Source of the DNA: an uncultured Oscillospiraceae bacterium
GTDB taxonomy: Bacteria > Bacillota > Clostridia > Oscillospirales > Acutalibacteraceae
Reading direction: 5' to 3'
Assembly: GCA_949297075.1 (NCBI GenBank)
Contig: CASFRX010000046.1
Location: 1-64,000 of the forward strand
Length of the DNA stretch: 64,000 nucleotides
Positions 25,920 to 50,859 of this stretch are shown piece by piece. The position numbers and the translations under genes are program-made. Under the pieces are notes generated by a model that saw only the letters and a program-made list of their open reading frames with translations, was not told the DNA's origin and made no database searches. Position 1 is the stretch's first letter. Every line of letters begins with the position of its first letter.

Positions 25920-26059
25920 ACTAAACTACCATTAAAATGGAAATATATCGTCTTTGGTAAATTTGACAAATTTTAATTGTTAAATTTGCACAAAAGTCCA
26001 AGCAAAAATCGTTTAATTTTCTCAACTGATTTTTATATTAAGAATGGAGTGATTTGCCT

Positions 26060-29000
26060 ATGGCAAAAGCAGCCCAAATGGTCAAGCACGGCAAAATCGA
26101 AAGATTGAGCTACAGCAGGATCAACGAAGTCATGGAGATGCCCAACTTCATTGAGATTCAGAAGAACTCTTATGAGTGGTTCTTAAACAAGGGTCTCAAA
26201 GAGGTTTTCCGTGACATTGACACAATTACCGATTACACGGGCAACCTTGAGCTTTCTTTCATCGATTTCAAGATGGACGATAAGCCCAAGTACACCATCA
26301 AGGAGTGCAAAGAGCGTGATGCAACTTACGCAGCTCCCATGCGTGTAACAGCAAGACTCTACAACAAGGAAACAGGCGAAATCAAGGAAAACGAAGTTTT
26401 CATGGGCGATTTCCCCATCATGACAGAGAGCGGCACTTTCGTTATTAACGGTGCTGAGCGTGTCATTATTTCTCAGTTGGTTCGTTCTCCCGGCGTTTAT
26501 TTTGATATCGACCACGACAAGGTTGGTAAAGAGCTCTACAAGGCTCAGATTATCCCCAACCGAGGCGCATGGCTCGAGTTTGAAACCGACCAGAACGACC
26601 TTTACTATGTCAGGATCGACAAGAACAGAAAGATTTTCATTACTACTTTCATTCGTGCTCTTTTCTGCGGCACAGATTTAGGTCAGGGTACAAATCAGGA
26701 TATCATTGATATGTTCGGCGATGATATTCGACTTAATGCTACTCTTGAAAAGGACGAGAAGCAAAATGCAGATGAGGCGTTGCTTGAGGTTTACCGCAAG
26801 CTCCGTCCCGGCGAGCCTCCCACCCTCGAAACAGCTCAGTCACAGCTCGATGCACTTTTCTTTGATGCACATCGCTATGATATTTCCCGTGTAGGCCGCT
26901 ACAAGTACAACAAGAAGCTTGCTATTTCCGATAGAATTGCCGGCTACAGAGCAGCTGAAATGATAGTCAGCCCCGCAACAGGCGAAATTCTTGCAGACGA
27001 GGGCGAGCTCATTACCAAGGAAAAGGCTTACGAAATCGAGCAGGCAGGTGTTAAGAAAGCTTATATTGATCTTGAAGGCACTAAGCTCTGCGTTATCTCA
27101 AACGGTATGGTCGATATCGGCACATACTTCCCTCAGTTCACAAAGGAGCAGTTCGAAGAGGCTGCTATCAACGAAAAGGTTAGCTTCGCTCCTCTTATTG
27201 AGCTTGTCAATGCAGCAGCAGAGAATGGCTGGAGCGATGATGAAATCCTTGAACAGCTCCTTGCTCACTGCGATGACCTTATTCCCAAGCACATTATTCG
27301 AGATGATATCTTCGCTTCCATCAACTATCTCAACTGCCTTGCCAACGGTGTCGGAAGCAAGGATGATATAGATCACTTGGGCAACAGACGCATCCGCTGC
27401 GTAGGTGAATTACTCCAGAATCAGTTCAGAATCGGTATGACCCGAATGGAGAGAGTTGTTCGTGAGCGTATGACAATTCAGGCGCAGGACAGCGACAAGC
27501 TCACTCCTCAGTCCCTAATCAGCATCCGTCCTGTTGTTGCGGCAGTTAAAGAGTTCTTCGGCTCCTCTCCGCTTTCACAGTTCATGGATCAGACCAACCC
27601 TCTCGGCGAGCTTACTCATAAGCGCCGTCTTTCCGCTCTCGGTCCCGGCGGTCTTTCTCGTGACCGTGCAGGTTTCGAGGTTCGTGATGTTCACTACAGC
27701 CACTACGGCCGTATGTGCCCCATCGAAACTCCTGAAGGTCCGAACATCGGTTTGATATCTTATCTTGCTACATTTGCAAAGATTAATGAGTACGGATTTA
27801 TCGAGTCCCCCTACCGCAAGGTAGATAAAGAAACAGGCATTGTTTCCAACGAAGTTGTTTATATGACAGCCGATGTTGAAGATAATTATATTGTTGCTCA
27901 GGCTAACGAGCCGTTAGATGAAAACAACCGTTTCAAGAATCCCAGAGTTAATGCGCGTCACCGTGACGAGTTCCTTGATATCGAGAACGACAAGGTTGAC
28001 TACATGGATGTTTCTCCCAAGATGGTTGTTTCTGTTGCAACTGCAATGATTCCTTTCCTTGAAAATGATGACGCCAACCGTGCGCTCATGGGTTCAAACA
28101 TGCAGAAGCAGGCTGTTCCGCTTCTCAAGACAGACGCTCCCATTGTTGCAACCGGTATGGAATACAAGGCTGCTGTTGACTCAGGCGTTGCTCTTATCGC
28201 AAAAAATGCCGGTACAGTAACCTATGTCAGCGCAGACAGAATCGAAATCCTCACAGATGCAGGTGATGTTGACACATACGAGCTTATCAAGTTCCAGCGC
28301 TCCAACCAGGGCACTTGTGTAAACCAGCGTCCCATTGTTAAATCCGGTCAGCGCATAGCTGAAAAAGAGGTTATCGCAGACGGTCCTGCAACAGACCTCG
28401 GTGAAATCAGCCTTGGTAAGAATGCCCTTATCGGCTTCATGACCTGGGAGGGCTATAACTACGAGGATGCCGTTCTTGTAAACGAAAAGCTTGTCAGAAA
28501 CGATGTCTACACTTCAATTCATATTGAAAAATATGAGCTTGAAGCAAGAGATACAAAGCTCGGTCCGGAAGATATCACAAGAGATATCCCCAATGTGGGC
28601 GACGATGCTCTTAAAGACCTTGACGAAGACGGTATCATCCGTGTAGGTGCTGAGGTTCATTCAGGTGATATCCTTGTCGGTAAGGTTACGCCTAAGGGTG
28701 AAACAGAGCTTACAGCAGAAGAGAGACTTCTCCGTGCTATCTTCGGCGAAAAGGCAAGAGAGGTTCGTGATACCTCCCTGCGTGTTCCCCACGGCGAATA
28801 CGGTATAGTTGTTGATGTTGAAGTCTTTACCCGTGAAAACAGCGATGAGCTCAGCCCCGGTGTCAACAAGGTAGTCCGCTGCTATATTGCCCAGAAGCGT
28901 AAGCTTTCCGTCGGCGATAAGATGGCGGGTCGTCACGGCAATAAGGGTGTTGTTTCCAGAATTCTTCCTCAGGAAGATATGCCCTTCCTTCCCGACGGCA

Positions 29001-29899
29001 CACCCCTTGATATTGTTCTTAATCCCCTCGGCGTTCCCAGCCGTATGAATATCGGTCAGGTTCTCGAAGTTCACCTCGGCTTTGCCGCAAGGCATATGGG
29101 TGTTAAGGTTATGACTCCCGTATTTGACGGCGCAGACGAAAACGATATCGTTGAAGCTTTCAAGATGGCTAACAAGAAGCTTATGGACGATGCAAGAGCA
29201 AGAGCTGAAGCCGCAGGCGAAGAATTTGACGAAACAAAGGTATTCCAGCTGCGTGACGACTGTAAATCAATCCTTACAGACGGCAGAACAGGCAAGAAGT
29301 TTGATAACCCCGTAACGGTCGGTGTTATGTACTACCTCAAGCTTCTCCACCTTGTTGACGATAAAATTCATGCCCGTTCCACAGGTCCCTACTCTCTCAT
29401 CACTCAGCAGCCCTTGGGCGGTAAAGCTCAGTTCGGCGGCCAGAGATTCGGTGAAATGGAAGTTTGGGCACTTGAGGCTTACGGTGCAGCTTATACCCTT
29501 CAGGAGATTCTTACTGTTAAATCTGACGATGTTGTGGGTCGTGTAAATACCTACAAGGCGATTGTTAAGGGTCTCAATGTTCCCAAGCCCGGCGTACCCG
29601 AATCCTTCAAGGTTCTTATCAAAGAGCTTCAGGCTCTCGGCCTTGATGTTAAGGTGCTTGACGGCAACAAGAATGAAATTGACCTTCGCCAGACCTTTGA
29701 CGATGATGATGTCGGTCTTCATATTGTTGACAGCGAAGCATTCTCAACCGTAAATGATGCAGGCGATGCTCAGGGCTATTCACAGGAAGGCGAGAGCATA
29801 TTTGAAGATATAGCTTCTGATGCCGATGATGAATGGGGCGATGAAGAGCTCGATTATCCCGGCGATGAAGCAGCTGAATTTGACAGCTACGAAGATTAA
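26060..29899 (+). CDS. rpoB: RNA polymerase subunit beta
   Basis: Catalytic core subunit, 1279 aa from ATG 26060 (GGAGTGA upstream; the TTG two codons earlier is less likely). The rifampicin-pocket region [14 protein letters not shown]...[14 protein letters not shown], about residues 501-531, keeps the residues of sensitive enzymes. [13 protein letters not shown] near 952 is the conserved catalytic-side motif. The C-terminus is a long acidic tail. The gene is not behind rplJ-rplL as in many bacteria: an amino-acid importer precedes it. Confidence 0.98.
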
Positions 29900-29943
29900 T
29901 TCTTCAAAATTCTTCAAAAATAATGTAGAAAGAGGTCGTTTTA

Positions 29944-33597
<3,654 letters not shown>

Positions 33598-38475: not shown

Positions 38476-40083
38476 ATGTCTATGTACCGTGCCCTTTACC
38501 GCACATGGCGACCCAAAACATTCAGCGATGTTGTGGGTCAGCAGCATATTACCAACACTCTGCAAAACGAGCTTAAGGCGAATAAGCTTGCTCATGCCTA
38601 TTTGTTCACAGGCTCACGGGGCACAGGCAAGACAAGCTGCGCCAAAATCCTGGCTAAGGCTGTCAACTGCGAAAATTTGCAGGACGGCAACCCCTGTAAC
38701 GAATGTGAGGTATGCAAAGGCATAGATTCGGGCGCAATACTCGATGTTGTGGAAATTGATGCCGCAAGTAACAACGGCGTTGACAATATCCGTGATTTGC
38801 GCGATGAAGCCAACTACACTCCCGTGCGTGCAAAATACAGGGTGTATATAATCGACGAAGTTCATATGCTTTCCGTCGGTGCGTTCAATGCTCTGCTCAA
38901 AACTCTTGAAGAGCCGCCTGAACATGTTAAGTTTATCCTTGCCACTACAGAGGTTCACAAGCTCCCTGCAACAATTCTTTCCCGTTGCCAGCGCTTTGAT
39001 TTCAAGCGCATTGAGCCGCAGGATATTGCATATCAGCTCAATAAGGTTGCGGCGGGCGAAGGCTTTACCATTGAGGATGAAGCCGCTTCGCTCATTGCCA
39101 AGGTTGCAGACGGCGGTATGCGTGATGCCCTTTCTCTCCTTGACCAGTGTCAGGGTCAGAGCAGTAATGTCACGGCTCAGCTTGTCAGCAGCGTTGCAGG
39201 CTTAACGGGGCATGACCATCTCTTTGCTCTTGCAGACTGTATCAAGAATAAGGACTGTGCAGGAGCGCTGAGCATTATAAACGATTTGCATAATTCCTCC
39301 TGTGATATGGAGCGGCTGTGTACGCAGCTCATAGACCACTACCGCAACTTAATGATTATCCGTTCGGTTAAGGATTGTGCCGGGCTTATAGTCTGTACAG
39401 CGGCTGAGCTCAAACAGCTTGAAGCTCAGGCAATGAGCTACACTTTAGAGCAGATTATGTATGTTCTCTCCGTGCTTGAAGCCACAAGTGGAAGCCTTCG
39501 CAGAGGATTAAACCGCAGAGTTGAAACGGAGATGGCTTTTGTCCGCCTTTGTACGGAGAATTTGGATTCATCGGTTGACGCCCTTTTGAAGCGTGTTGCC
39601 GAGCTTGAAAAAGCCGTTAGAACAGGTGCGGTAGCTTCCGTACAGCCGAGCCAAACGGCTCAGCCCGAACAGCCTCATGCAGAAAAGCCTAAACCCAAAG
39701 AATTGCCTGAGGGTGAGCTCAACTGCTGGCAGGATATTGTGCAGGAGCTCAAAACAATAAATATGCCCCTCTCCGGTTTGCTCATAGATTCAACGGCGGC
39801 AGTCAGCGGAAAGTTTATCGTTATCTATTCCGGCAATTCATCTATCGGTGCATTGCTAAAGCTCAATAATAATTTGGCCGACCTTAAAAAGGCGGTGTTC
39901 AATGTTACAGGTGCGGTTTATAAAATCGGCGTCAAAAAGCCTGAAACGGCTGAGCCGACGCCTGACCCGTATGCCGATGCTTTGCCTCCGCCCCCTCCTG
40001 AGCCGGCTCAAGAGGAGAGCGACCCCCTAAATGAGCTTTTGGGCAGAGCTAAGCAAAGCGGAATAGAAATCAAAATCAACTAA
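38476..40083 (+). CDS. dnaX: DNA polymerase III subunit gamma/tau
   Basis: Clamp-loader ATPase of the replisome. The 535-aa product has Walker A GSRGTGKT (46-53), a zinc module with C65, C74, C77 and C80, Walker B IIDEVHML near 123-130, and the SRC sensor motif LSRCQRFDF. A proline/glutamate-rich linker begins near 390, followed by a short tau-like C-terminal domain. The start ATG 38476 follows GAGGTGAG. Confidence 0.95.
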   Translation: MSMYRALYRTWRPKTFSDVVGQQHITNTLQNELKANKLAHAYLFTGSRGTGKTSCAKILAKAVNCENLQDGNPCNECEVCKGIDSGAILDVVEIDAASNNGVDNIRDLRDEANYTPVRAKYRVYIIDEVHMLSVGAFNALLKTLEEPPEHVKFILATTEVHKLPATILSRCQRFDFKRIEPQDIAYQLNKVAAGEGFTIEDEAASLIAKVADGGMRDALSLLDQCQGQSSNVTAQLVSSVAGLTGHDHLFALADCIKNKDCAGALSIINDLHNSSCDMERLCTQLIDHYRNLMIIRSVKDCAGLIVCTAAELKQLEAQAMSYTLEQIMYVLSVLEATSGSLRRGLNRRVETEMAFVRLCTENLDSSVDALLKRVAELEKAVRTGAVASVQPSQTAQPEQPHAEKPKPKELPEGELNCWQDIVQELKTINMPLSGLLIDSTAAVSGKFIVIYSGNSSIGALLKLNNNLADLKKAVFNVTGAVYKIGVKKPETAEPTPDPYADALPPPPPEPAQEESDPLNELLGRAKQSGIEIKIN

Positions 40084-44072: not shown

Positions 44073-44424
44073 GGGGATGAAAGGATTTCGACGGGGATTC
44101 AGAGTCATGATAAGCGAGTAGCGGTGCGGAACCGCTATAAAAGCCGCAGTTTATTAAAAATAAACGACAACGAATTAACTCTTAAAGCTGCTTAACTTAA
44201 GCAGCCGTCGTTACCGGGAGCACCGCGGCCCGGATAACGGCGTCGATTAGCGGTGAACGTGCGTGTTAGATTAGCCTTGTATAACACCACGCACTAAAGG
44301 CTACCGTAGGGCGAAGCCTGCCGATTGGCGTCGCCTGAGGGGAATCCCAAATAATCGGATACACTCGTAGAAAGTTGTGGTAATGGGTTTTCGGACGCGG
44401 TTTCGACTACCGCCATCTCCACCA
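44073..44424 (+). ncRNA. ssrA: Transfer-messenger RNA
   Basis: Rescues stalled ribosomes. The ends form a tRNA-like acceptor: GGGGATG (44073-44079) pairs with CATCTCC (44414-44420), followed by A and encoded CCA. The T-arm TTCGACTACCG is near the 3' end. The likely tag frame (44163-44195) encodes NDNELTLKAA then TAA, with the stop inside the GCTGCTTAA/TTAAGCAGC hairpin as in other tmRNAs. The resume codon cannot be fixed; the codon before is ATA. Length 352 nt. Confidence 0.93.
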
Positions 44425-45722: not shown

Positions 45723-47373
45723 CTATTTTGCTGCTGCCGTTGTGAGCTGAGATGCTCTTTCAAGGGCGGCGTCAATATGCTCGCATATGTTTTCTTCGCC
45801 GATTTCGTTTAACAAGCCTGATTTTTTGAGTGCTTCCATTGGCTGTTCGTTGACATGGGAAAGCACAAGGGTTGAGCCTTTTTTTCGGCAGACCTTAATG
45901 AGCTGTTCAATGCTGTGTATGCCTGTTGCATCAATGGCCGGCACGCTTCTCATTCTCAGAACGATAACATTTTTATTTGCTCTCTTTATAACATCGGCAA
46001 TTTTTGTTGAAGCACCGAAGAATATGGGGCCTGTAATCTCGTAAACCATAGTGCCTTCGGGGATTACTTTCAGGGATATATTGTCGATATCCGTGCTTTC
46101 GTCAATTTCTTTCCAGCCGTAAGCATCGGTAACATCGCTCATGCGTTTCATAAACATTACGGTTGCAAGAATTATGCCGACTATGATTGCAACAACAAGG
46201 TCAAACGCAACTGTCAGCACAAAGGTTACGATAAGCACAAGGGCATCGCTCTTGGGAGCGCGCTTGATAATTGAAGTAAATTCTCTCCATTCGCTCATGT
46301 TGTAGGCAACAACGAAAAGGATAGCAGCAATGGTGGGCATGGGAATGAGCGAAGCAAAGGGCATGAGCACAACGAGAACAAGCAAAAGAACAACTGCGTG
46401 AACCATGCCTGCTACGGGAGTACGGCCGCTGTTTTTGATGTTGGCGGCTGTTCTTGCGATTGCGCCTGTTGCGGGAATACCGCCGAAGAGAGCGGAAGCA
46501 ATGTTACCGGCGCCTTGAGCGACAAGCTCCATATTGGAGTTGTGGCGGCTGCCTGTCATTCCGTCTGCTACAACACAGCTCAGCAGGCTCTCTACCGCTG
46601 CAAGAACTGCGATTGTGAATGCGTCGGGAAGTATTGATTTAACTGCATCAACGGAAAATTCGGGCATGACAAATTTCGGCAAATCCGATGAAATAGTGTA
46701 GAGGTCGCCGATGGTGTTTACATCCATGTTGAGCAGCTTAACAAGAGCGGCGCTGATTATGATTGCAAAAATTGAGGGGGGGAATACGCTTAATAAATTT
46801 CGGGAAGATAATGAGGATAGCCAGAGAAACGGCGCCGATAACAAACGCCTGCCAGTTGAAGGTGGCAATACAGCTTACAACCTCTTTGAGCTTATCTATT
46901 GTTTCAATGGGGGAGTTTTTAAATGTAAGTCCCATGAAATCCTTGAGCTGACCGATTACAAGGGTAATTGCAATACCCGTTGTGAAGCCTGTTGTGATTG
47001 TATAGGGAATGAACTTAATAAGGCTGCCGAGCTTGAATAAGCCCATTACAACGAGGAGAATACCTGCGATTATTGTAGCGAGAGCAAGTCCGCCGATTCC
47101 GTTTTTGGCAATTATGCCTGCAACGATTGTTGCAAAGGCGGCTGTAGGGCCTGCAATTTGCACGCGGCTTCCGCCTAAGAATGATATTACGAAGCCTGCG
47201 ATAATTGCGGTGTATAAGCCCTGATCAGGTGTAACTCCCGAAGCGAGAGCAAGCGCAATGGAAAGGGGGAGCGCAATTATGGCAACGATGAGACCGGCGG
47301 TTAAATCCTTGACAAATTGCTCTTTGGTGTAGCTTTTCATGCATGAAAAAAGCTTTGGCTTAAATTCTTTCAT
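45723..47373 (-). pseudogene. SulP-family anion transporter, frameshifted
   Basis: Together the two frames give a complete SulP transporter (about 549 aa): membrane domain, then a C-terminal STAS domain (about the last 110 residues). The first frame runs from ATG 47373 (AAAGGGG upstream) through KEFKPKLF to ...KFIKRIPP and then goes out of frame; the second continues as SIFAIIISAALV to the stop at 45723. The break is at a run of seven C (minus strand; G at 46776-46782). Six would restore IPPSIFAII exactly. It may be a sequencing error, a phase-variable tract or a recent mutation. Expected cargo: sulfate, bicarbonate or another anion. Confidence 0.85.
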
Positions 47374-47542
47374 TTTTTTACCCCTTTTATACCTCAAATC
47401 CGTGTTTCGCTGTACAATTATAGACTTGTCGGAGTTCAGTTTCAAGGCGAAAAACTAAATTCCGGAGATTTCTATGTTTTGTAACAATATAACAAAATGA
47501 AAGTAGGATTTTTGTAAACTTTCCCCATGGGTTTATTAATGC

Positions 47543-47608: not shown

Positions 47609-48961
47609 ATGTTCGCATTACTTAAAAATTTCTTTGTTTCCCTTCTGGCGCTTATTACCGCCGCCGCTCCTTTCGGCAAACCCGAATTGCCTGAGCGCAA
47701 ATGTGCGCCCGAATTTACGGGCACTTTTGTTCAGTCCTGGATGAGCAGCGGCTGGGATGATGAACGCTGGGCAGAAGAGGTTGAAGCCATGCAGGCTGAC
47801 GGTGTGGAATACCTCGTTTTGCAGGATTTGGCAAATATGGATGCCGACGGCAACTGGACGATTTATTATAACAGCACTGTATCTGCTTTTGAAAATGCGG
47901 CTTTTGGCGGCGATGTTTTAAATGCGGCTCTCAAAGCCTGTGAGGGAAGCGGAATAAAGGTTTTTGCAGGGCTCACGATGTTTGACTCTTTCTGGCTTTT
48001 GGGTAACTTCACAGGGGATTACGAAAAGGTCTGCAGAATTACTGCCGATATGGTGGGGGATATTGCGTCGGGCTATTCCTCCCCGGCTCTTTACGGCTGG
48101 TATTTCACCCTCGAAATCAATAATCAGATTAACTGCGGTTCCATTATGCCGAAAATGACAGAGGGCTTAAACCTTGTTCTTGCCAAGGCAAGCGAGGTCG
48201 CTCCCGGTATGCCCCTTATGATAAGCCCATACACAGCGGGTTATCTCTCCTTAGGTGATGCCTCCACCTATGCGCAGTGGCTGACATTTTTCGAGCTGAC
48301 AAAATTCAGAGACGGTGATATTGTCGCTCCACAGGATGCTCTGGGAGCTGATTGGATTGAAGAAGACGACCTTGTCAAAATTTGGGAAACCTATTCAAAT
48401 GCGGCAAAAAGAGCAAAGGCTGATATTAAGCTTTGGGCCAACTGCGAAAACTTCGATATTGCAATAGGTCCGGGTGCCCTTGCAGGCACGGCTTTAAGGC
48501 CTCAAACAGAAAATATAGAATCCGTTACCGCCTGCTTGGATAGGTTTGTCAGGCAAATGGATATTGCTTCACGCTACTGCGAGAATATAATCACCTTTTC
48601 TTATTCCCATTATTTCAGTCCTAACTTAGTTAAGCCTTTCTATATGGAAACCTATCACAATTATGTTGAAAACGGCTATGTTTTGGAAAAAGAAAAGCCT
48701 GTTTTGCCCGATGCGTTTACAAAAACCGCAGGGGAAAACGGCGTTGAGCTGAATTGGCAGGCGGCTGAGGATAATTTCGGCGTTGCCTATTACCGCATTT
48801 GCAAAAACGGCGAGTTTTTACATAGAGTCGAGATGTATAAGTGGGATTATCCCATGAGCTTTACCGATGAAAACGGCATGGTTTCCGATGAATATACCCT
48901 CGTGGCAGTGGATGCCGCAGGCAATATGAGCGATACGGTAATATGCGTTGAATCGATTTAA
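47609..48961 (+). CDS. Secreted DUF4434-like TIM-barrel protein with C-terminal Fn3-like domain
   Basis: A 450-aa protein with an N-terminal hydrophobic signal (ALLKNFFVSLLALITAAAP). GTFVQSWMSSGWDDERWAEEVEAM and VEYLVLQDLAN fit the DUF4434 glycosidase-like barrel; the segment LYGWYFTLEINN near residue 170 places a glutamate on a strand end, as in retaining hydrolases. The last 90 residues (LNWQAAEDNFGVAYYRICKNG...) look like a fibronectin type III module. Substrate unknown. It is a single-gene unit. AGGAGG precedes ATG 47609. Confidence 0.7.
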   Translation: MFALLKNFFVSLLALITAAAPFGKPELPERKCAPEFTGTFVQSWMSSGWDDERWAEEVEAMQADGVEYLVLQDLANMDADGNWTIYYNSTVSAFENAAFGGDVLNAALKACEGSGIKVFAGLTMFDSFWLLGNFTGDYEKVCRITADMVGDIASGYSSPALYGWYFTLEINNQINCGSIMPKMTEGLNLVLAKASEVAPGMPLMISPYTAGYLSLGDASTYAQWLTFFELTKFRDGDIVAPQDALGADWIEEDDLVKIWETYSNAAKRAKADIKLWANCENFDIAIGPGALAGTALRPQTENIESVTACLDRFVRQMDIASRYCENIITFSYSHYFSPNLVKPFYMETYHNYVENGYVLEKEKPVLPDAFTKTAGENGVELNWQAAEDNFGVAYYRICKNGEFLHRVEMYKWDYPMSFTDENGMVSDEYTLVAVDAAGNMSDTVICVESI

Positions 48962-48994: not shown

Positions 48995-49022
48995 TTGACA
49001 TTTGCTCATTTTTTAATATAAT
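48995..49022 (+). promoter_or_regulatory. Strong sigma-A promoter of the GH3-family gene
   Basis: Perfect TTGACA (48995-49000), 16 nt, perfect TATAAT (49017-49022). Confidence 0.8.
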
Positions 49023-49067
49023 TTGAAGTGATTGTTAATAAAATATTAATATGGGAAGTGAAGGCTA

Positions 49068-50801
49068 ATGGCATCTTTTTCAGATATCGGTGTGCTTCTC
49101 GGCGATGTTTCCCTTGCTGAGATCAGACACTACACAAAAGACCCTATGAAGGCTCAGAACATGACTCTGAGAAAAATTCTTCGCAGAAACAAGAACTGCG
49201 AGCTCGGTAAGAAATATCACTTCAAAGACATAAAGACTATTGAAGATTATCAGAAGATGGTTCCCCTTTCAAGCTATGAGGATTATGCGCCCTATGTTGA
49301 GCGCATGATACATAACAAAGAAAAGAACCTTATGTTCACAGGCTGGAATGTGCGTTACTGCTCCTCTTCGGGCAGTGTAGGCAAGCCGAAGATTTTGCCA
49401 AAGGGCGTTAAAGACCTTTGGAATATGCAGTGTATAGGCTTCTCCTGCACTGTTGCAACCGCTTATCATCATCTTAAAAAGCACGGCGTCAGGATGCCCC
49501 CTCAGATGGGTCCCATTGTTCTCATTCTCACAGGTCATCGCCTTGAGGACGGCAAAATGTGCAACGGCGCAGGTCAGGTGCCTCTGACCTATCTCAAGCC
49601 CATCACTCCTTTCTTCTGCACATCGCCAACCTCTTTGCTCTATCCTGAGCATGAGGATCTCATTGATACATCTTATCTTCAGCTTCGTTTTGCGCTGGAG
49701 AACAGAAAGGTCAGCTACATCGGCGCCCTTGTTATCACCTTGGGCACAACTATGTTTGATTACCTTGAGGAAAATTGGGAAATGCTCTGCGACGATATCG
49801 AAAAGGGCATAATCAACCCCAATATCAAAATTACACCGGACCTCAAAAAAGAATACTCCAAGAAACTCAAGCCCAACCCCAAGCGTGCGGCTGAGCTGAG
49901 AAAAGAATTTGAAAAGGGCTTTGAAACTCCTATCGGTCCGAGAATTTGGCCGAGACTCACCTGGGCATACGGCATGATAGGCTCTAACCTCAAGGTTTAT
50001 GTGGAAAAGTTCCGCCGTTCCGTTGGCAATATTCCGCTTCACAATATGGGCTTTGCCGCCGCAGAGGGCTTCTTCTCAATGGCAACAGAGCTGGATGTTG
50101 ATGACGGCGTTCTTCTCCCTCAGTGCCTGTTCTTCGAGTTCCTGCCCGTTGATGACGACGCTGAGGACGGCAATGAAGAGGTAACGCCTCTCCTTATTGA
50201 CCAGCTTGAAATCGGCAAAAAATACGAGATTATTGTTTCTAACTTCTCCGGCCTTTACAGATACCGTATGGAGGATGTTGTCAAAGTCACAAGAATGTTC
50301 AACAACACTCCTCAGATTGAGTTCCTTTACAGACGCAATCTCGGTATGAACATTGCCAACGAAAAGACTACCACAGAGATGGTTGATATGGCGGCTAAGC
50401 AAACAGCCGAAGAAATGGGCAACGAATTTGTCGGTCACAGCCTGTATGCCGATTATTCAACCAATCCTCCCCGCTACTGTATGCTTGCAGAGCCTGTTAA
50501 GCCTGTCAGCGAGGAAGACAGACAGAAATATATTGATATCCTTGATGAAAAATTTAAGGCATTTAACGAAAAATATTTCAAATATCGCCGTTGGGGCATG
50601 ATTAACAGACCTGAGGTTCTCTTCCTTAAGCCCAAGACCTATTGGGATTACCGGGAAATGCTTCGCGGACAGGGCAAGGTTCTCAACCAGATTAAGCCCG
50701 TAACCATTATCAACAGCGAGGAAAGATGCGAATTTTTCTTCTCCCATGTTGCTACTCAAACCGAGCTGCCCTATAAGTGCAAAGAAACAAATAAGCAATA
50801 A
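49068..50801 (+). CDS. GH3 auxin-responsive-promoter family protein (acyl-adenylate-forming)
   Basis: A 577-aa protein of the GH3 family, known from plants as acyl-amido synthetases that join amino acids to jasmonate or auxin after adenylation. The ATP motif CSSSGSVGKPK is near residue 105, and GLYRYRMEDVVKV near 400 is the second nucleotide motif. The bacterial substrate is unknown. No signal peptide. It is a single gene with a near-consensus promoter and its own terminator, so a self-contained function is likely. Confidence 0.85.
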   Translation: MASFSDIGVLLGDVSLAEIRHYTKDPMKAQNMTLRKILRRNKNCELGKKYHFKDIKTIEDYQKMVPLSSYEDYAPYVERMIHNKEKNLMFTGWNVRYCSSSGSVGKPKILPKGVKDLWNMQCIGFSCTVATAYHHLKKHGVRMPPQMGPIVLILTGHRLEDGKMCNGAGQVPLTYLKPITPFFCTSPTSLLYPEHEDLIDTSYLQLRFALENRKVSYIGALVITLGTTMFDYLEENWEMLCDDIEKGIINPNIKITPDLKKEYSKKLKPNPKRAAELRKEFEKGFETPIGPRIWPRLTWAYGMIGSNLKVYVEKFRRSVGNIPLHNMGFAAAEGFFSMATELDVDDGVLLPQCLFFEFLPVDDDAEDGNEEVTPLLIDQLEIGKKYEIIVSNFSGLYRYRMEDVVKVTRMFNNTPQIEFLYRRNLGMNIANEKTTTEMVDMAAKQTAEEMGNEFVGHSLYADYSTNPPRYCMLAEPVKPVSEEDRQKYIDILDEKFKAFNEKYFKYRRWGMINRPEVLFLKPKTYWDYREMLRGQGKVLNQIKPVTIINSEERCEFFFSHVATQTELPYKCKETNKQ

Positions 50802-50807
50802 CGAGAT

Positions 50808-50850
50808 AAGCGCAGCGGGTTTGTTTACGGCTCGTTGCGCTGCTTTTTGC
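50808..50850 (+). terminator. Terminator of the GH3-family gene
   Basis: AGCGCAGCG (50809-50817) pairs with CGTTGCGCT (50833-50841), followed by GCTTTTTG. Confidence 0.7.
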
Positions 50851-50859
50851 GCTTTTCCC

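Follow-up and report, generated by a model that had tools for sequence, protein, structure and literature searches.

The 64,000-nucleotide stretch of clostridial DNA analysed here (the window) carries a gene for a GH3-family acyl acid–amino acid ligase. Our preferred reading, at a probability of roughly 0.47, is that this enzyme makes an N-acyl amino acid, probably a fatty one, and that an exported partner enzyme with a Cys nucleophile acylates or remodels the product. The window GH3 is well preserved and belongs to an enzyme family already known; its linked partner is invisible from the window alone. Taken together, the partner gene, the exchange of its nucleophile and the matched presence and absence of the two genes turn a case of 'function unknown' into a testable two-enzyme system.

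Membership of the GH3 class, already claimed in the original prediction, is secure. Three Pfam domains of the 577-aa protein score above their cut-off of 23.6 bits each (GH3, 238.8 bits; GH3_M, 91.1 bits; GH3_C, 66.8 bits), and the closest solved structures are plant GH3s, with JAR1 at the top (E = 4.6e-50, 173.9 bits). An AlphaFold2 model built from 41 aligned sequences (pLDDT 86.1) superimposes on JAR1 (4epl) with a Z of 41.4 and an rmsd of 3.1 over 528 residues at 24% identity. No further GH3 was found in the window's genome, leaving the 577-aa protein as its sole GH3. The ATP-contact residues on which the original prediction had been made to depend are present: S100-S101-G102, E333, D403 and K543 are invariant in 41/41 aligned sequences, within motifs that are slightly changed (Table 1). 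For K543 we assume a role in adenylation.

Bacterial GH3s are widespread. Matches occurred in 27 of 391 genomes across the class, 25 of them over the cut-off, and in 41 of the 300 genomes of the family sample, three of these scoring no more than 44.9 bits. Of 327 confirmed GH3 matches, the best 80 were all titled Clostridia or groups within them, and many of these 80 loci came from the gut of goat, sheep, deer, buffalo, cattle or horse, in agreement with the gut or rumen anaerobe that had been proposed as host. We assigned matches of 820 bits or more to type A, the type of the window's GH3 (23 genomes in the 300-genome sample). Type B is exemplified by L017, ~46% identical to the window GH3, and type C by L015 and L019, ~31% identical. 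A GH3 tree of 80 named copies, 37 with the partner downstream and none from plants, gave a long-branch warning among the class-wide GH3s and was used to place the window protein and the type-A clade.

The gene itself is intact, and its promoter and terminator were recovered as predicted (Table 1). ORF reading gave an ATG start, 577 aa and zero internal stops, flanked by a fully matching promoter and by a hairpin with a T run. Judged by its consensus match, the promoter is probably strong. Exact sigma-70-type sites with a spacer of 16–17 number 51 in the whole 1.99-Mb genome, against 1 for a reversed control pattern. Counts of such sites within the 8-kb scanned region scarcely exceed chance (promoter-like, 14 found and 12.7 expected; terminator-like, 14 found and 9.4 expected); what sets the GH3 promoter and terminator apart is the perfect score and where they lie. 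A near-consensus promoter lies within 200 bp upstream of 37 of the 79 GH3 copies of named relatives, with 1.7 expected from single-base shuffles; an own promoter is thus common in the GH3 group. The distance from the end of the −10 element to the start is 24–62 bp in 31 of these 37 copies; in the window it is 45 bp. The near-consensus pattern is not reached by any of the six nearest relatives displayed, five of them keeping TATAAT with a −35 element that is weaker by eye; the ribosome-binding stretch of all six, AGGAAGTGA or AGGATGTGA, lies at about the same place as in the window.

Table 1 Features of the GH3 gene in the window
Feature	Position	Strand	Details
Promoter	48995..49022	+	−35 TTGACA (48995-49000), 16-nt spacer, −10 TATAAT (49017-49022); 12/12 consensus positions
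Ribosome-binding stretch, purine-rich	49053..49064	+	GGGAAGTGAAGG; direct sequence reading
GH3-family acyl acid-amino acid ligase, type A, 577 aa	49068..50801	+	Pfam domains, JAR1 similarity, model
Motif I, SSGSVGKPK, residues 100-108, ATP-phosphate loop	49365..49391	+	Identical in 82/82 type-A sequences
Motif II, AAEG, residues 331-334	50058..50069	+	E333 kept
Motif III, GLYRYRMED, residues 395-403	50250..50276	+	G395 and D403 invariant in 41/41 aligned sequences
C-terminal lysine K543 in LNQIKPV	50694..50696	+	LNQIKPV or LNQVKPV in 82/82 type-A sequences
Intrinsic terminator	50809..50851	+	13-pair stem (50809-50841), then T-rich tail

The claim that no neighbour tells which acid is joined was found to stand within the window and to fall in the relatives, where an LCAT-like gene of the Cys type is often downstream. 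In the window, 7 bases and the terminator separate the GH3 gene from an AzlC gene, and the partner is not adjacent. The window's own neighbours were considered as an explanation and set aside as insufficient for a link: within 6 kb of the named GH3s, an AzlC homologue was present in 3 of 80 loci (L029, L030 and L031) and AzlD in 2 of 80, while a metallophosphoesterase homologue occurred in 7 of 80 and the upstream DUF4434 gene in 0 of 80.

Several other features were recorded. At L029 (4794-5829), an AzlC/AzlD-like pair lies directly upstream of the GH3; the window pair lies directly downstream. The DUF4434 protein gene (47609-48961, + strand) ends just before the GH3 promoter. On the − strand (45723-47445), overlapping frames of 235 and 381 aa resemble, by eye, the ends of one sulfate-permease-like transporter interrupted by a shift of frame and may represent a pseudogene or an assembly error. 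The window is ordinary chromosome, with rpoB and rpoC (26054-33597, + strand), a dnaX-like gene (38476-40083) and a tmRNA gene (44073-44424).

Partner adjacency was scored by homology for 84 GH3 copies in 80 loci, 79 of the copies having enough sequence. In 36 of these 79 the partner lies immediately downstream of the GH3 in the same orientation (38 when L044 and L047, with overlapping ORF starts, are counted); it is only upstream in 5 and on neither side in 36. The adjacent copies listed are all of the Cys type except one at L035, an upstream Ser copy in a locus whose downstream copy is Cys. Gene grouping over 81 loci, 8 of which had their GH3 displaced by an antisense ORF, placed the partner in 41, directly downstream in 32, and the next commonest group in 10 loci. 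Fourteen gene groups recur in at least 6 of the 81 loci; one representative of each was scanned, and four lacked a Pfam match. The groups other than the partner comprise phosphoesterases, a sigma factor, an ABC ATPase (6 loci), housekeeping genes, another alpha/beta-hydrolase and three unmatched groups. A recurrent 655-aa group (10 loci) runs antisense to the GH3 gene, overlapping it, and probably reflects an artefact of ORF choice. We saw no recurrent linked transporter beside type-A GH3s and, among the genes neighbouring GH3s, no recognisable plant-hormone, bile-acid or aromatic-acid genes.

Beside type-A GH3s, the partner is ~530 aa long, with an N-terminus that is hydrophobic by eye. Its nucleophile elbow reads xRCxG or similar, with Cys and not Ser, whereas unlinked paralogues mostly have Ser at this position. 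With one profile, Cys was found in 37/37 rows at 386 bits or more and in 0/26 rows at 369 bits or less (24 Ser, 1 Gly and 1 unaligned). With the other, the best Ser copy (359 bits) falls between two truncated Cys copies (356 and 365 bits), so that the clean gap in score between Cys and Ser holds for one profile only. In a tree of 102 family members, 71 Cys rows fall on one side of a single branch with support 100. To Pfam the partner is a weak LCAT or alpha/beta-hydrolase: six family members scanned against Pfam LCAT (cut-off 21) gave 22.1 (L030), 17.1, 14.7 and 11.1 bits and two without a match, the 11.1-bit match being the Ser-type paralogue L079. The partner model (pLDDT 91.0) is closest to lysosomal PLA2 (Z 20.0) and LCAT (Z 19.3); Foldseek returned E = 1.4e-4 at best, with TM below 0.5. 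A Cys nucleophile tends to favour acyl transfer over hydrolysis, as in the bile-acid-conjugating BAAT and in PhaC.

The hydrolase family as a whole is expanded in the window's genus, with 12 to 21 matches per genome, apparently exported, which is unusual.

Across 300 genomes of the family, 22 have both genes, one has a type-A GH3 only (G006), none has the Cys partner only and 277 have neither; from scores transcribed manually, this gives a Fisher value of 1.8e-32 that ignores relatedness. The partner search scored the best 4 candidates per genome among the matches listed, a procedure that weak Cys copies may escape, and the nucleophile was read directly, from the best copy, in each of the 22 positive genomes but in only a few negative ones. 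Contrasts within genera are a better control than the Fisher value. Five genera (g15, g16, g303, g333 and g377) each contain members with both genes and members with neither, which makes common descent by itself a poor account of the pattern. The window's genus, where the correlation is weakest, has five members in the 300-genome sample. Within that genus, a Cys copy is found in 7 of 10 genomes with a whole type-A GH3 and in none of G006, G007 (77% complete) and G010 (90% complete). With both samples pooled, 25 of 28 type-A GH3 genomes have a Cys copy, G002, which has a GH3 fragment, being left uncounted.

The idea that the window gene is functionally independent was not supported by this comparison. 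In the GH3 tree, the window protein groups with L025, L026, L027 and L032 (support 97), its four nearest relatives, all of which have the partner directly downstream, and the window genome keeps a Cys-type copy on another contig (G000:C13:33450-35087). Most simply, the adjacent partner is missing in the window species through loss; with the Cys copy kept on C13, the two-gene state persists in trans. The C13 copy belongs to an early branch with the copies of G493 and G009, and none of the own-genus members of this branch is shown beside a GH3. G493 is likewise split, with its GH3 on C81 and its Cys copy on C21. By eye, the genes adjoining the C13 copy resemble a polyamine ABC transporter.

Other GH3 types have neighbours of their own. 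In 8 of 9 type-C loci a GDSL-family protein is encoded next to the GH3 in the same orientation (seven downstream, upstream in L223, absent in L226). The figure is 8 of 12 with the low-scoring L230, L231 and L232 included, which have no GDSL protein beside the GH3 and seem to belong to other GH3 types. The GDSL protein of the linked loci (L015, L019, L223-L225 and L227-L229) is apparently exported. The pairing of type B is weak: in 5 of 10 loci the GH3 is followed immediately by a condensation-fold match, and that of L234 alone is over the cut-off. Among the exceptions, L238 resembles L239 without a Pfam match, and L233 and L240 have neither a condensation protein nor a decarboxylase. In L235 and L236 the second gene downstream encodes a PLP decarboxylase, perhaps as part of an N-acyl amine route; the decarboxylase of L236 scores 258 bits against a cut-off of 299 for the tyrosine decarboxylase MfnA, and a DUF819 membrane protein lies between. 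The GH3 genes of L176, L178 and L191, tandem copies in the first two, share a cluster with ABC exporters and ATP-grasp ligases, and L176 and L178 also have NRPS-like genes nearby; the cluster proteins were scanned in part and the rest named by resemblance.

We infer the reaction, its substrates, the order of its steps and its topology as follows. The GH3, cytoplasmic and ATP-dependent, would adenylate a carboxylic acid in its free form, a fatty acid being the likeliest candidate, and would transfer the acyl group from acyl-AMP to an amino acid's amine to form an N-acyl amino acid. Family, predicted fold and motifs agree with the synthesis of N-acyl amino acids as the probable type of reaction, as had been suggested, and make a strong case for adenylation followed by putative amide formation. 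For a fatty acid as the probable substrate, the predicted partner folds and the analogy with OlsH (see below) make a moderate case. The exported Cys partner would most likely carry out a second acyl transfer to the GH3 product, or remodel it, on the outer side of the membrane, the end product being an acylated amino-lipid; linkage and co-occurrence argue with moderate strength that it acts on this product. With a partner that looks exported and a cytoplasmic GH3, the product would need to pass through the membrane. In the window species, the Cys-type partner on the other contig would have to serve the GH3.

The alternative that survives best, which we nevertheless consider unlikely, is the capture or detoxification of fatty acids. 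Exported hydrolases would liberate fatty acids from lipids of the diet or of membranes, and the GH3 would conjugate the incoming acids to neutralize, store or export them, the pair being linked by a flow of substrate from outside to inside and not by a second acylation. The partner comes from a large hydrolase family, with 13 matches in the window genome and the expansion noted above across its genus, and could be a lipase instead; its nearest folds are phospholipases, LCAT and lipases, and OlsH takes free fatty acids with no need for CoA or ACP (PMC12493201). Against capture, the Cys branch alone, and not the Ser paralogues, tracks with type-A GH3, and another GH3 type pairs with condensation-fold proteins, not with lipases. 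The nucleophile weighs on the same side, Cys in place of Ser being unusual in a plain lipase.

We regard as improbable a conjugation in the manner of the plant auxin and jasmonate GH3s, in which the acid joined to an amino acid would be aromatic, a bile acid or short-chain, and not a lipid. The JAR1 match, at 173.9 bits, exceeds the 74.4 bits of the OlsH model, although these are different kinds of score, and plant GH3s use small acids (PMC12493201); but the partners have lipid-enzyme folds, and the 14 recurrent gene groups, four of them lacking a Pfam match, include no recognisable aromatic- or bile-acid gene. Least credible of all is an amide-bond step in a peptide or NRPS-type metabolite: GH3s elsewhere in the class do lie near ATP-grasp ligases, ABC exporters and NRPS-like genes (L176, L177 and L191), and type-B GH3s near AMP-ligase, condensation or decarboxylase genes, but the recurrent neighbours of type-A GH3s include no NRPS, ATP-grasp or exporter pair and one ABC ATPase, in 6 loci.

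Acylation or remodelling of a GH3 product by the Cys partner could be part of a more far-reaching scheme, which we put forward tentatively and with some doubt. Uncultured Clostridia of the herbivore gut would have a two-compartment amino-lipid pathway in which the N-acyl amino acid formed by a cytoplasmic GH3 is acylated at the cell surface by the exported, LCAT-fold partner; the line of the partner would have exchanged Ser for Cys once and become an acyltransferase; and GH3s would have been paired with several unrelated folds possibly capable of acyl transfer (LCAT-like, GDSL and condensation/PapA-like), as in planctomycetes with OlsI. If the two-enzyme system is real, it would give Clostridia of the livestock gut an additional class of membrane or secreted lipid and might account for part of the gut pool of N-acyl amino acids. 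The pairing of a GH3 with an LCAT-like Cys partner is not described among the literature matches listed.

Among known systems, the plant GH3s (JAR1/GH3.11, GH3.12 and GH3.5) match the predicted fold of the window protein over nearly its full length (Z ~41, 22–24% identity), and by analogy their acyl-adenylate chemistry would be expected of the window GH3 too. Unlike them, it has a bacterial host and no hormone link was seen among its neighbours; motif II is SSEG and motif III LGD in plants, against AAEG and MED here, with the Ser of motif II replaced by Ala. On the side of the partner, PLA2G15 and LCAT share its predicted fold (Z 17–20 over 266–283 residues, 10–14% identity), but their nucleophile is Ser, whereas the partner has Cys and falls mostly under the Pfam LCAT cut-off.

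OlsH (Sinac_1599 of Singulisphaera acidiphila), a lyso-ornithine lipid synthetase, is a bacterial GH3 like the window protein. Identity of the two was rejected: the window protein scores 74.4 bits against a curated cut-off of 620 (NCBIfam NF052613) and is thus a GH3 but not OlsH. OlsG was not seen among the recurrent neighbours of type-A GH3s. PF13444 (Acetyltransf_5), to which OlsB presumably belongs, had 0 matches in the window genome, with the controls E. coli and Bacteroides ihuae positive. In both OlsH and the window GH3 the three motifs can be recognised, the essential Ser included. Motif I reads SSGTSQGRPK in JAR1 and TSGTTQGATK in OlsH (PMC12493201); that of the window GH3 is one residue shorter, as it is in the other clostridial GH3s displayed. 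OlsH S115A is inactive and S293A active (PMC12493201), and by our reading of the motifs S101 would be the counterpart of the essential S115 and A332 that of the dispensable S293. Among the literature matches listed, no assayed bacterial GH3 besides OlsH was found. OlsH acts with OlsI, an alpha/beta-hydrolase O-acyltransferase, to produce ornithine lipid (PMC12493201), and this couple serves as a precedent for the proposed pair. A gene of the predicted alpha/beta-hydrolase fold, a candidate counterpart of OlsI, adjoins the GH3 in the relatives and is absent beside the window gene; in contrast to OlsI, the relatives' partner looks exported, is LCAT-like and has Cys. The OlsH–OlsI, type-B and type-C pairs suggest that GH3s repeatedly team up with enzymes able to move acyl groups.
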